From positions 43,521,624-43,585,623 of the forward strand of contig CM055900.1 of NCBI GenBank assembly GCA_029582155.1: a stretch of 64,000 nucleotides of DNA. Direction: 5' to 3'. Positions 58,590 through 64,000 of this stretch are shown here, one piece after another. Position 1 is the first letter of the stretch, and every line of letters starts with the position of its first letter. Source of the DNA: Panopea generosa (Eukaryota; Mollusca; Bivalvia; Adapedonta; Hiatellidae). The position numbers were made by a program, and so were the translations under genes. The notes beneath the pieces were generated by a model. That model did not search any database, was not told the origin of the DNA, and worked only from the letters and a program-made list of their open reading frames with translations.

Positions 58590-59284
58590 GGGGTTTCACG
58601 TTATGTGTGTGTATTTTTGTTGTTATAATACAGTTTTAAAAAAACACCAACACGTAAAAACCGTTAGTTAATTTTTTTGTTTATTTTTGTTGTTAAAATT
58701 TCAGATAAAAATGGAGGTTGCAAAAGCTTGGGAGTAGCGCCGGTGTAAGGAAGTATTTTGACCCCCATAGAATAATGACCCCCGGTCGTTATTATATAGA
58801 AAAAATGACTCCCCGGTCAATATTTTATATAGTATAATGAATCGCCGGCCATAATATTATGATCCCCCCCCCCCCCCCCCCCCCACATGAAGTAAAATAA
58901 CCACACTTGCAATATACGTTTATTTTGTTGATAATACAGCAACGTCCTGCCAGGTAACATTACATTTGTAACAAAGTACAAAACAAAACTGTTGGTGATT
59001 GAGCAGTACATGCATTGTATTTACCTACTCTGTATTTACGGTTTCTTTTGTATCGTAGTGCCACTTGCGTTAAAATACATGTTTTGCTATCTTCCATAAA
59101 TATGTTTAACATGAATATATAAATGCACAATTAAATGCATACTTTTATCTGATTTTTCTTTTATACATGTTCTGTCTATAACGTTGAACCAATTTTTATG
59201 AAAAAGCAATATGACCAACTGTGGGTGTCATAATAATACTTCAGACAAGACTTTGCGACACCTCAGATAAAGTTTTGAAAGTAT
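58590..59284. other. Intergenic DNA with a poly-C run
   Basis: A C homopolymer of about 21 bases lies at 58864-58884, next to several ATGACCCCCGG-type phrases (58770-58860). No gene recognised. Confidence 0.4.
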
Positions 59285-60127
59285 TTATATTTGTATACCG
59301 TAATAGCACAGCTGTTCTGTATTCATTTTGTAGAAAATAACTACTACGAACATGCGGACAGTCAGGTTCTGAATTTGGTTCATCTTAGGAGGGTAGTGAC
59401 TATACTCAAGATTAAAAATGTTCGCGTCTACATCAAGAGACAGTCCTTTCAAACCATCAACATTGTATCTCTCGTTTGTGAATTCTTTGACATAAACACT
59501 TGTTACACTTTTGTCTCTTTCCTTCAACAATTCTTCGTCCCTATGGCTATTGACCAAAGTTCCGTCCAAGATGTCGTCGCTTAAGAACCTATAGTACTTT
59601 GCTGAAATGATGTTCCGAATTCGAGAATTCGGCGGTCTTGAAAACTCCTCGCCCTCCATATCCAGAACTGGGACGAAATGGTCGCCTGTGTTATGGATGA
59701 AAACTGTCATTGAGTTGACACCCTCATCAGACAACGGTTTATATTCTAACCACTTCCAGTTATCTCCATACCTCGAACACACATAAACGATGGTTCGAGT
59801 TTTTGTTGCAAATGCGAGAATCTCAACTTCAGTTCCCCATGTATCATCATCAGTGGCCATCATTGACTGGTCGAGATAATGATCCACTGCATCACGCATA
59901 ACACCTCTCATTAAATTCTCATTTTCTTTCATAAACTCAACAAGGACATATCGGAGGAATCTATGTATTGTTTGCACACCAAACACAATGTACCTGAATG
60001 TTCTTAACAGACAATTACCATCTCCACGCATGGAAACAGTACGTGTTGGTTTTGCGCCTCGCGATATGTACCTGTCCTGGCCAGTATTGTATGGATTCTT
60101 CACGTTCGAATGAAATACGTTGGGCAT
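59285..60127 (-). CDS. OTU-domain cysteine protease attached to a gypsy-type retroelement
   Basis: An open frame of 280 codons. OTU proteases cleave ubiquitin chains or viral and element polyproteins. Residues 35-50 read GDGNCLLRTFRYIVFG, the OTU Cys box, with Asp36 and nucleophile Cys39. WGTEVEILAFA at 97-107 matches the conserved central strand. DHFVPV at 149-154 supplies the catalytic His150. The Cys, Asp and His are all present. The N-terminal Met is only the first Met after a stop: the same frame continues upstream through two stops (TGA at about 60139, TAG at about 60320) into the integrase C-terminal ORF. The last ~30 residues are hydrophobic and look degraded. It could be a captured host OTU gene or a native domain of the element. 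Confidence 0.8.
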   Translation of the reverse strand: MPNVFHSNVKNPYNTGQDRYISRGAKPTRTVSMRGDGNCLLRTFRYIVFGVQTIHRFLRYVLVEFMKENENLMRGVMRDAVDHYLDQSMMATDDDTWGTEVEILAFATKTRTIVYVCSRYGDNWKWLEYKPLSDEGVNSMTVFIHNTGDHFVPVLDMEGEEFSRPPNSRIRNIISAKYYRFLSDDILDGTLVNSHRDEELLKERDKSVTSVYVKEFTNERYNVDGLKGLSLDVDANIFNLEYSHYPPKMNQIQNLTVRMFVVVIFYKMNTEQLCYYGIQI

Positions 60128-60319
60128 TTGTTCTTGTCAATCCTTATCCACAGGCTTGAATTGGAACGATTCATTGGCACTTTCTTTAATAACAGTTACA
60201 TCACCGACATCAAATACCTTTCTCTTTTTAAGAGGGAGTTGACGCTCGTCCTTACCTTCTGTATTATCATTTTGCCCTTCACACCCTACATCATGCTTCG
60301 TTTCCATCGCAAACACTTT

Positions 60320-60520
60320 CTAAGAATCTCCTTCTGCTGCACTTCTATCATCTTCATCCTCGCCTGTCCTGTAAATCGTAAGTCTGCTTCTACTTACAGA
60401 TGTCTTAAGTCCTAATAAGAAGTATGTTCCGTTCTCACTTACTTTTGTTACACGATATAATCCTTTCCACTTTGTTTCAAACTTCCCTCCTTTTCGAATT
60501 GTCTTTCGAGTGTTATGCAC
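60320..60520 (-). pseudogene. Gypsy-type integrase C-terminal domain
   Basis: 66 codons with GGKFETKWKGLYRVTKVSEN, the SH3-like C-terminal domain of Ty3/gypsy integrases (G-KF---W-GPY-V). It ends with an acidic stretch (GEDEDDRSAAEGDS) and TAG. The frame is the same as that of the OTU ORF. Between them the frame encodes a charged linker with a basic LPLKKRKV patch. Confidence 0.8.
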
Positions 60521-60549
60521 TAGAACCTGGTCACTGACACAAAACGTGT

Positions 60550-60738
60550 CTACCGATATGGAGATATGGAAGAATCATGATACTGTTTCTGTTTTGACTG
60601 TGCCGTTTTTATGTTTAATGGTACCTTTTCTCTTCTACATGCTAACTCTATGAAAGATTCACATCTTTGCCTGAGTAATGTTTCATAGTCCTGACTTTCA
60701 CCTCCTTCCGTTTGTGGAATGTTTAATTCAATGGACAA
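60550..60738 (-). pseudogene. Gypsy integrase segment between core and C-terminal domain
   Basis: 62 codons. From IELNIPQTEG on it corresponds to the segment after the GR-ARLPID block of gypsy integrases. It is joined to the core ORF only through a frameshift around 60735-60760, and a stop follows at 60550. Confidence 0.7.
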
Positions 60739-61157
60739 CCGAGCTTGTCTACCTTACACAAGATAAAAGTGTGTTTGCTTTGTGGACGCATGTTTTGACG
60801 TTCTGTACGCAAATAATACATAGGTAACTTTACATCCCAGTCATTATGGGCTGGGTTGACGTAGTGGATAAGCATGCTACATAAAGTTCTATTAAAACGT
60901 TCCATGTGACCCCCAGTCTGTGGATGAGGCGCTGATGCTATTCGGTGATCTATCCCAAATTGTTGACATATTCGGTTGTTCAGGTCGTTGCAAAATTCCC
61001 TTCCTTGGTCCGTTATCAGAACCGTCGGGCATACATGCGTAGCCATACATTTTGTGAAGACGCTCATAACCTGTTCAGTTGATTTGTCCGGAATTGCCTC
61101 TGCTTCTACCCATTTCATGAAATAGTCTGTAGTAACCACGATGAACTTGTTACCTGA
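60723..61157 (-). pseudogene. Gypsy-type integrase catalytic core
   Basis: In the 138-codon open frame from 61139, the catalytic residues are Asp5 (TTDYFMKWVEA), Asp44 (ITDQGREFC) and Glu80 (GGHMERFNRTL). Exactly 35 residues separate Asp44 from Glu80, so the DD35E set is intact. The coding similarity begins a few codons earlier (GNKFIVV, from about 61157), immediately after CTTTTCAG, which looks like a splice acceptor. The N-terminal zinc-finger domain, RNase H, RT and LTRs are not visible in the sequence beyond. The frameshift near the 3' end marks it as decayed. Confidence 0.85.
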
Positions 61158-61299
61158 AAAGCAGATTTGAAAAAAGTTTTTAACTTGAAACCGACTTCTA
61201 CCAACAACATTTATTTCAGTATTATGCTCAAGATTCGTTCTTGCTAAGGTGCGCTAGATTTCCTATCCACAGTCAACATCACATTGATCTACACACGGC

Positions 61300-61610
61300 A
61301 ATACAACCAGCCAGCCAGCCAGCCAGCCAGCCACCCATCTAGCCATGCATACACACATACATGCATGCATTCAGGCATACATACATGCATAAATACATGC
61401 ATATAGCAAGCCAGCAAGCCAGTCAGCCAGCCCAGCCCATCCCAGCCCAGCCCAGCCCATCCCAGTCCAGTCCAGTCCAGTCCAGTCCAGTCCAGTCCAG
61501 TCCAGTCCAGTCCAGTCCAGTCCAGTCCAGTCCAGTCCAGCCCAGCCCAGCCCAGCCCAGCCCAGCCCAGCCCAGCCCAGCCCAGCCAGCCAGCCAGCCA
61601 GCCCAGCCAT
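61300..61610. repeat. Compound CAGCC / CATA / CCAGT simple-repeat block
   Basis: Tetranucleotide CCAG (61309-61332), CATACATG-type repeats (61340-61405), then pentanucleotide arrays: CCCAG, about 16 units of TCCAG (61464-61540), and CCCAG again to about 61590. All six frames stay open by chance and give Trp-Ala-Gly-Leu or Gln-Pro-Ser repeats. Strand asymmetry is extreme (C-rich top, G-rich bottom). Confidence 0.95.
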
Positions 61611-61689
61611 GCATACATGGTAACAAAACAATAGGGTGCGTCGGCGGTGGTGACGGAATGCTAAGGCACAAGTAACTTAAAGTGAGGGG

Positions 61690-62240
61690 TATTGGAGGTT
61701 AATGTGGGCGTTGGAGGGGAGGGTGGGGGTGGGGGGATGGGGTGGAGTATTGTAGATTGTTGCACTCTACACATCGTCTCATCTCCACCTACATATAATC
61801 TAAGATTCAAGTCAATACCTTGAATAGTTTATGAATTGTGTTCCGGACACAAAATATGACAGACAGATTTGACATTTGAACTCAATTGGTGACCTTGACC
61901 TTTGACCTACCCATCGCCACCTACCTATTTCCCAAGTTTAAAGTCAATACCTTGAATGATTATTAAGTTATGCTCCGTACACGAACTATGATGGACAGAT
62001 TTGACCTTTGAGCTCAATTTGTGACCTTGACCTTTAACCTACGGACCCGGTTCACGTGTCCTGTATATCGTCTCATCGCCAGCTACCTAGATGCCAAGTC
62101 TGAAGTCATTACCTTGAATGGTTATTAAGTTATGCTACGGACACGAAATATGACGGACGGGCGGACGGACGGACGGACGGACGGACGGACGCACGCGCCA
62201 TCACATAATACGTCCCGTTTTTCCAAAACGAGTGTATAAA
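61690..62240 (+). repeat. Interspersed repeat with ~140-bp units and (GGAC)n
   Basis: Three units of roughly 140 bp carry AAGTCAATACCTTGAATG, AAGTTATGCTCCG-ACACGAA and TTGTGACCTTGACCTTTAAC. They are followed by a GGAC/ACGG tetranucleotide run (62150-62192) and a terminal CCCGTTTTTCCAAAACGAG partial hairpin. Non-coding. Confidence 0.65.
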
Positions 62241-62244
62241 AAGG

Positions 62245-63130
62245 AAATGACATTGAGATATCATGTAAATATTAACAAACCTGTACACTTAAATATTCAT
62301 AATGGGTGCACTTTGGACAACTTTGATTGTTTCTTGATGTATTAAACATTCTCAGAATTAATCTGCTTAATCTAAGAAAATGAGTGGTTTTCATAATGGA
62401 GAAATGTACACAAAATGTAAGAGTAGTTACATGTTATGAAGCCAATTCAACAAGGAAGTCATACTTCCGAATATTTAGACATGTTTATTTTTTTTGAGTC
62501 TTTTAAGGACTATGGTCGGATCACATAGCATTCAGTTGTAATTCAAATGGATTTGGATAAGTATCATCATCAAAATTATGCACACCCTGCAGTCGATGTT
62601 TTTGTCTCCCAGCGATTTTTAACTGTTTCGAAACATAAAATTATTCTTAAACGGGCACCGGTTTCAGATCAGAAGTGAGCAGAAGTGTTTCTTGCCAGAA
62701 TGTAATCAGTATATATATCCAAACAATGATCCCGATTGGCAACTTCTGATTAGTTTTTATGCTCGAAAACATGTGTACCGCTAACGAAGAATACCTTGAA
62801 TGGCTGCACTACAGTTTGGGACAGAGATAAAACCCATATTTTGAAAACGCGCTACTGTTGCCACTACCTTTTCAAATATCCCATGTAACAGTTACTCTGT
62901 TAAATTTCGTTAAATTTCTTCCCATGTATTTGGCTTCTTCGCCTGTCCGTCTGCATTACCTTGATTTCTACTCTATTCATAGTAGCCTTTCCAGTGAAAC
63001 CTTTCGGCAATTTTCTTCTATCTTAAAGAAGTATGACGATTGTCTAAATGTTTCAAGACACAGACCTTTTAAATGTAGTATGAATATGCCTTTGACTGGT
63101 TATAATGGCGATGTGTCGAATGTAAATCTT
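62245..63130. other. AT-rich DNA before the terminal LINE, no confident gene
   Basis: A 92-codon open frame (62858-63136) has no clear family. It could be the degraded end of the LINE endonuclease region but shows no motif. Confidence 0.3.
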
Positions 63131-63139
63131 TCGTAATCA

Positions 63140-64000
63140 TATAATATTAACTGGAAAAAAGTAAGGCAAGTTGATATAACATCCTATCGAAACATGCTCA
63201 ATACATCCGAGGATTTGATAAAAGCACAAAATTGTCCGTTAACATAACCTGCTGAAATTAGTAATATGTATAAAATTTTAATCGAGGCTGTTGTTTCTTG
63301 CTCAGATAAGTGTTTCGCAAGACGAGATTTAAGCACTTTTTAAAACCGTATTGAAATTCAGAGTTAAAGTCATGTTATAAAAACGGAAAATCTGGATTCA
63401 AAAATGATAGACCAAGAGATCAATCACATTATTCTTATAAAAGTTATAAAACATCAAAATGAAAAACACAGGTATTTTGCCAATAAGTATTTAAAAAATC
63501 TTGATGAAGAAATTGATACAACCGCTGAACTTGATAAAGAAAATTTTTGGAAATTAGTGAATTCGCGAAGAAAACGGTCATCAAGTAGAGCATGCGCTAT
63601 AATAAAATTCAATGGCGTAATGTATAGGGATAACGACAGTATTACAGAGCAATGGAAACAATATTTTGAATCGTTATATACCCCATCAATTGATAATAAT
63701 TATGGTAATATTTGGAAAGCTTCTGTTGACGAAAAAATAAACTCTGTTATATCGCAGTCTAGATTTTGTATTGATGATGTCATTACTGTGTGAAAGGAAG
63801 AAGTCAGAACCTCAATTACATCGTGTAAACGCGGCAAAGCTAGTGGGATCGATAATGTTTCATACGAACACTATATTTTTGGCGGAAATATAGTTATTAA
63901 TACATTAGCACATCTATATATAGCTATGCTGTCCCAAAGTTACATTCCACCAAACATGAACAAAGGCGTAATTATAACATTACATAAAGGCGGAGGTAAA
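63140..64000 (+). pseudogene. LINE ORF2, linker and start of reverse transcriptase, runs off the window
   Basis: The longest open part (63404-63793) encodes the pre-RT segment typical of non-LTR retrotransposons: ENFWKLVNSRRKR, then FNGVMYRD, then EQWKQYFESLY. After a TGA at 63791 the same frame continues with KEEVRTSITSCKRGKASGID, then NVSYEHY, and ends NMNKGVIITLHKGGGK at the window edge. These are RT blocks 1-2. Stops between 63240 and 63390 break the upstream frame. The wording fits CR1/Jockey-like elements. No endonuclease motif is visible upstream. Confidence 0.85.

Follow-up and report, generated by a model that had tools for sequence, protein, structure and literature searches.

What kind of element carries an OTU cysteine protease in frame behind a Gypsy-type integrase? 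In the window analysed here, which is the whole stretch of 64,000 nucleotides taken from contig CM055900.1 of the bivalve Panopea generosa, the minus strand holds, read from 5' to 3', a Gypsy-type integrase core, an integrase C-terminal region and an OTU cysteine protease. An earlier note on this DNA had recognized this order, and both the sequence and the Pfam matches bear it out: OTU is matched by the ORF at 59285-60136 (-; E 2e-6), and rve by the integrase ORF at 60723-61253 (-; E 4.8e-7), whose score of 30.4 bits is slightly below the cut-off of 32.6. It was also right in placing the OTU and the integrase C-terminal ORFs in one frame: the ORFs at 60320-60574, 60137-60319 and 59285-60136 have a common frame, broken by two stops; the integrase core lies in a different one. 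The note went on to read the arrangement as the remnant of a Ty3/gypsy Pol polyprotein. By matching it to described features, we assign it instead, with little doubt, to the DNA transposons, as a 5'-truncated and mutated copy of an OTU-bearing Ginger1 family.

The window copy can be followed from its 3' end, where a CCGG target-site sequence (58740..58743, without strand), placed from the sequence and from genome matches to 58731-58860, adjoins the element. The 3' terminal inverted repeat (58744..58812, -) reads TGTAAGGAAGTATTTTGACC inward from the end and was recognized by its match to the 5' end of a sister copy on C3 (91% over 69 bp, inverted relative to the element). The following 3' untranslated region (58813..59404, -) is ~0.8-2.3 kb longer in other copies. 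Residues ~244-283 of the OTU ORF are not OTU sequence and match what in other copies lies ~0.8-2.3 kb downstream of the OTU domain, which indicates a deletion in the window copy at ~59404/59407. The OTU protease region itself (59405..60136, -) is delimited by the Pfam match, the residue positions and conservation across loci. Its Asp39, Cys42 and His153 (codons 60020-60022, 60011-60013 and 59678-59680, -) are the residues that the note had correctly named Asp36, Cys39 and His150, counting from Met4 of the ORF. Further upstream, the sequence gives a polar linker in frame with the OTU (60137..60319, -) and the integrase C-terminal region of GPY type (60320..60574, -), which reads KWKGLYRV in the window and is assigned from its sequence and from the GPY of sister families; a Pfam scan of this region returned no match of its own.

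The integrase core is represented by a frameshifted exon 3 (60575..61153, -), identified by the rve match and an acceptor AG. It contains the second Asp and the Glu of the DDE triad, as the note had them. The first Asp named there, in TTDYF, is non-catalytic: aligning the sister protein L071 to the Ty3 and PFV integrases in the PDB, by which the triad was placed, puts the true first Asp in MDLVGP, upstream of TDYLTKW. The exon with this motif is reduced in the window to a 57-bp match at 62977-63033, and the true first Asp is missing from this copy. This remnant (-) comprises the start of exon 2 with its acceptor and is 88% identical to locus L020 over the 57 bp. Between the two exons lies what is left of intron 2 (probably 61154..62976, -), delimited by the acceptor at 61154/61153 and by homologous sequence in other copies; the portion of the integrase ORF before 61153 is intron. 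Simple repeats, (CAGCC)n/(CCAGT)n, occupy 61310-61620 within this intron, and comparable ones stand at the equivalent place in many of the 20 integrase loci listed; a microsatellite seems to travel with the element. Upstream of 63033 no further window sequence could be matched to the C3 copy. Just past the end of the Ginger1 homology, at 63368-64000 (+), there are ORFs that resemble the beginning of a reverse transcriptase of LINE type, whose motif we take them to contain; Pfam found nothing convincing in them. With its stops, its frameshifts, the deletion at 59404/59407 and nearly all of exon 2 gone, the window copy is dead and too broken to make a transposase protein.

Do the integrase and the OTU form one unit? 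Genome searches with the window domains, which score the best candidates only and thus give lower bounds, returned at least 141 OTU and at least 156 integrase matches on many contigs, fragments being counted apart. Within 1.5 kb on each side, 27 of 30 OTU loci have an integrase match and 28 of 30 integrase loci have an OTU match, the partner being missing from these flanks at OTU loci L016, L020 and L031 and at integrase loci L043 and L061 (5/60). Order and strand agree in every locus that holds both domains (55/55; some loci overlap, and these are not 55 independent copies). When the integrase loci are sorted by identity to the window, a listed OTU match lies within 2.5 kb in 47/51 loci at 60% or more, 10/13 at 50-60%, 6/11 at 40-50% and 0/57 below 40%; the count covers the best 150 of the 156 integrase matches, collapsed to 132 loci, and excludes OTU matches confined to residues ~242-283. 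A check of 88 further OTU matches omitted from this count yielded no new integrase locus. One locus counted as lacking OTU in the 40-50% class, L076 (C7:61214034), carries the domain on direct reading; since the search missed it, absences of OTU are upper bounds. At L071, which represents a related family, the integrase, the GPY motif and the OTU stand in a single open frame of 546 aa without a second intron (rve 2e-13, OTU 8e-12). This frame and the recurrent order and strand establish that the OTU and the integrase belong to one protein. To this extent the ancestral polyprotein of the note survives; its attribution to Ty3/gypsy does not.

How is this protein encoded? The integrase is split by introns, and the core part present in the window begins at an acceptor whose AG is kept in 29/30 integrase loci. 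Exon 2 carries CDKCQ, together with variants of MDLxGP in the loci that reach it, and ends in the donor G/GTATGT in 3/3 loci searched. An earlier exon is recognizable in L077, where a YP...F...FY stretch and HSQQH, in pieces owing to frameshifts in this copy, end before GTGAGT. The YPYY stretch was read by eye, across two frames, in this one copy only; the H2C2 zinc finger, also read by eye, combines HSQQH of exon 1 (L077) with CDKCQ of exon 2. Pfam gave no match to the L077 ORF with YPYY and HSQQH. Measured from the 5' end of the C3 copy, the YPYY-bearing exon is found at ~0.6 kb and its successor at ~2.6 kb, and a Pfam scan for protease, reverse transcriptase and RNaseH before the integrase (L077; 8 sense ORFs of at least 40 aa, up to 0.75 kb short of exon 2) gave 0 matches. 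L076 has the same integrase-OTU order as L071 and an rve match, with its OTU in two pieces. The GPY motif reads KWTGPYKI in L071, KWVGPYQI in L076 and RWTGPYSV in L005, where the window has GLY. No copy with an intact whole gene was found in the window's own family. An intron inside the integrase core is at odds with an element that copies itself via RNA.

At 58744 the window copy has CCGG outside and TGTAAGG inside, and the same junction is found in L043, L077 and L080; L043 combines it with an integrase but has no OTU match. Among 59 genome matches to the query 58731-58860, in which CCGG starts at position 10, 31 start at positions 8-10, the others being the window itself, four starting at 6, one at 11 and 22 inside the element end. 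A sister copy of 6,309 bp at C3:69921868-69928176 shows CCGG abutting TGTAAGGAAGTATTTTGAC at both ends in inverted orientation (CCGG, then TGTAAGG). The main match between its end kilobases is inverted (71 bp, 84.5% identity, E 1e-15); the search of the same kilobases for direct repeats listed only a 19-bp match and, in this one copy, no LTRs. Both ends were seen in the C3 copy alone, which has the OTU and has itself lost the integrase core through an internal deletion, there being no integrase match in L020. The partner (5') end of the window copy was not found in the 4 kb beyond, and a search for inverted repeats within the window alone was uninformative, since no 5' end of the copy was found. 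In the related family L076, CCGG followed by TGTCG marks an end ~0.9 kb before the integrase frame, with no partner found in 6 kb downstream; for L071 no paired termini were found, only one unpaired CCGT followed by TGTGA.

Ginger1 transposons, as described by Bao, Kapitonov and Jurka, encode a Gypsy-like integrase with YPYY, H2C2, DDE and GPY/F motifs and a C-terminal OTU or Ulp1 domain, and have terminal inverted repeats of ~40-270 bp, TGTNR ends, CCGG or CCGT targets, lengths of 2.6-7 kb and 0-4 introns (PMC2836005). The Panopea family agrees with this description. A Gypsy-like integrase is matched by rve in the window (less the first Asp), L071 and L076, with the DDE core placed on L071; upstream of the core, H2C2 and YPYY were found by eye, the latter from L077 alone; GPY/F occurs in L071, L076 and L005; and the C-terminal domain is OTU. 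Inverted repeats of a length within this range and starting with TGTNR bound the C3 copy, one such end being left in the window, and CCGG, as a putative 4-bp target-site duplication, flanks the C3 copy at either end and the window copy at one. Among the elements described in the same paper, Ginger1-1_AC of Aplysia californica ('Giger1-1_AC' in its Table 1) likewise combines a Gypsy-like integrase with a C-terminal OTU, two introns and inverted repeats; compared by description, it measures 4,336 bp with 140-bp repeats, against ~6.3 kb and ~71 bp in the C3 copy (PMC2836005). The Hydra elements Ginger1-1, -2, -3 and -11_HM also join integrase and OTU, in a group with CCGG or CCGT targets and TGTNR ends, but have one intron each and repeats of 109-270 bp (PMC2836005). 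What is new here is a further OTU-bearing Ginger1 family; the presence of OTU on Ginger1 has been known since 2010, when such transposases, that of Aplysia among them, were published (PMC2836005).

Could the locus nevertheless be a Ty3/gypsy LTR retrotransposon whose Pol has gained a C-terminal OTU, as the earlier note held? The integrase core is indeed Gypsy-like, with Ty3 and PFV as its best PDB matches, and in L071 it is fused with the OTU. The same note had proposed looking for full-length LTR elements with reverse transcriptase and RNaseH before the integrase; the one copy tested for direct repeats, on C3, has inverted rather than direct terminal repeats and little 5' space, with 0 Pfam matches in the 8 ORFs scanned there. 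CCGG at the element ends and the intron within the core also speak against Pol, as do the 0/57 integrase loci below 40% identity with a listed OTU match nearby. We therefore reject this reading on the inverted ends, CCGG, the intron in the core and the small 5' space, and regard it as very improbable. Limited searches of the open literature found no paper on an OTU in an LTR element. What leads us to Ginger1 is the character of the ends, their CCGG target, the presence of introns, the small 5' region and the absence of listed OTU matches near the more distant integrases.

Two other explanations are less probable still. A decayed integrase might have come to lie by chance beside an OTU that belongs to an unrelated gene or to a different transposon, the case that the note had named as its own refutation. 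OTU sequences are very common in the genome (at least 150 scored matches), and the partner is missing from the flanks of three in 30 OTU and two in 30 integrase loci; coincidence of this kind is nonetheless hardly credible given the one open frame in L071, and it is rejected because order and strand are fixed in all 55 loci that hold both domains, overlapping ones included. Nor does it seem at all plausible that a Ginger1 transposase has here been domesticated as a host gene and has kept its OTU. Domesticated Ginger1 integrases do exist (PMC2836005, PMC12863088), and the crustacean Imagin, a domesticated Ginger1, likewise has YPYY, an H2C2 zinc finger and a DDE-derived core; it differs in being a host gene with a defunct DDE, and the word OTU is absent from the main text of its description (PMC12863088). 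The window copy is disrupted by stops and frameshifts, which exclude domestication at this site, and by a deletion, and multiple copies of the unit are spread over many contigs. As a Ginger1 family, the autonomous element would encode a single transposase, spliced from at least three exons and combining the YPYY motif and H2C2 zinc finger, the DDE integrase core, the GPY/F-type C-terminal region and the OTU protease. Judging from homology and from the ends, this enzyme would excise the element at its TGT...ACA termini and insert it into CCGG.

What could the OTU contribute? Its Cys, His and Asp are in place in the window, L071 and L076, and across 66 matched loci the aligned residues are kept in 44/46 (Cys), 50/55 (His) and 39/45 (Asp), overlapping loci being counted twice; His is lost in some, e.g. 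L005. Between L071 and L076, dN is 0.25 and dS 1.6 for the OTU (174 codons), and 0.13 and 1.42 for the integrase (315 codons). In this one pair, with dS near saturation, both domains are under purifying selection. Near copies compared with the window have pN/pS of 0.63-0.98, which is decay after insertion; more distant loci give 0.33 (L029 OTU) and 0.48 (L005 OTU), and the L005 integrase 1.16 over a short, poor alignment. In the PDB, the sequences closest to the L071 OTU region are those of OTUD1 (E 4e-4) and OTUD3 (E 1e-3), which differ in being cellular proteins without a transposase part. The joint conservation of OTU and integrase in one family pair indicates that the OTU is probably part of the working of the element. 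Our best guess is that its most likely role is deubiquitination in cis, which may spare the transposase from ubiquitin-dependent turnover or alter ubiquitin signals at the repair site. The Ginger paper suggests that the domain takes part in repair while the element transposes or afterwards (PMC2836005). Helitrons and Helentrons likewise carry an OTU on a DNA transposon and differ in being rolling-circle elements without an integrase; for them, deubiquitination that prevents degradation of proteins needed for transposition has been proposed, and transposon OTUs are described as untested (PMC9741609).

OTU domains are also found in other settings in this genome. L072 (C4:87690000-87694500), L073 and L075 have long open frames with an N-terminal OTU followed by DUF4371, a region that we take to be a hAT-like transposase; L072, the one of the three scanned, matches DUF4371 in Pfam with 2e-20. 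Limited searches of the open literature found no paper on an OTU linked to hAT-like ORFs. At L074:606-2831 there is a second, distinct pair of integrase-like ORFs that ends in a C-terminal OTU (2e-11); its integrase matches rve (0.016) and rve_3 (1.6e-4) below the cut-off, and no long inverted ends were found within 4 kb. At L003, L004, L006 and L008 (L007 is broken), a repeated OTU ORF of ~190-235 aa precedes an ORF with C2H2-like spacing, read by eye, for which Pfam gave no significant match in L003. Several of the best genome OTU matches are of this type, which is perhaps a Mutator-like element. Finally, a lone open OTU ORF of 206 aa at L001:1279-1896, 30% identical to the window OTU and without an integrase match within 1.5 kb, may be either a host gene or an OTU that has been domesticated.

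A probable misannotation is put right here: Ginger1 transposases can easily be labelled as gypsy integrases, a risk of confusion also named by a survey of bivalve transposons (PMC10294476). The pair L071/L076 adds evidence from one family pair that the OTU is kept by selection together with the integrase. The OTU stands C-terminally in Ginger1 and in the L074 integrase, N-terminally in the DUF4371/hAT-like ORFs and ahead of the C2H2-like ORF. We tentatively raise the possibility, to which we give somewhat less than even weight, that several unrelated types of DNA transposon gained an OTU independently in this genome, and that transposition by cut-and-paste may generally require ubiquitin to be removed in this host.
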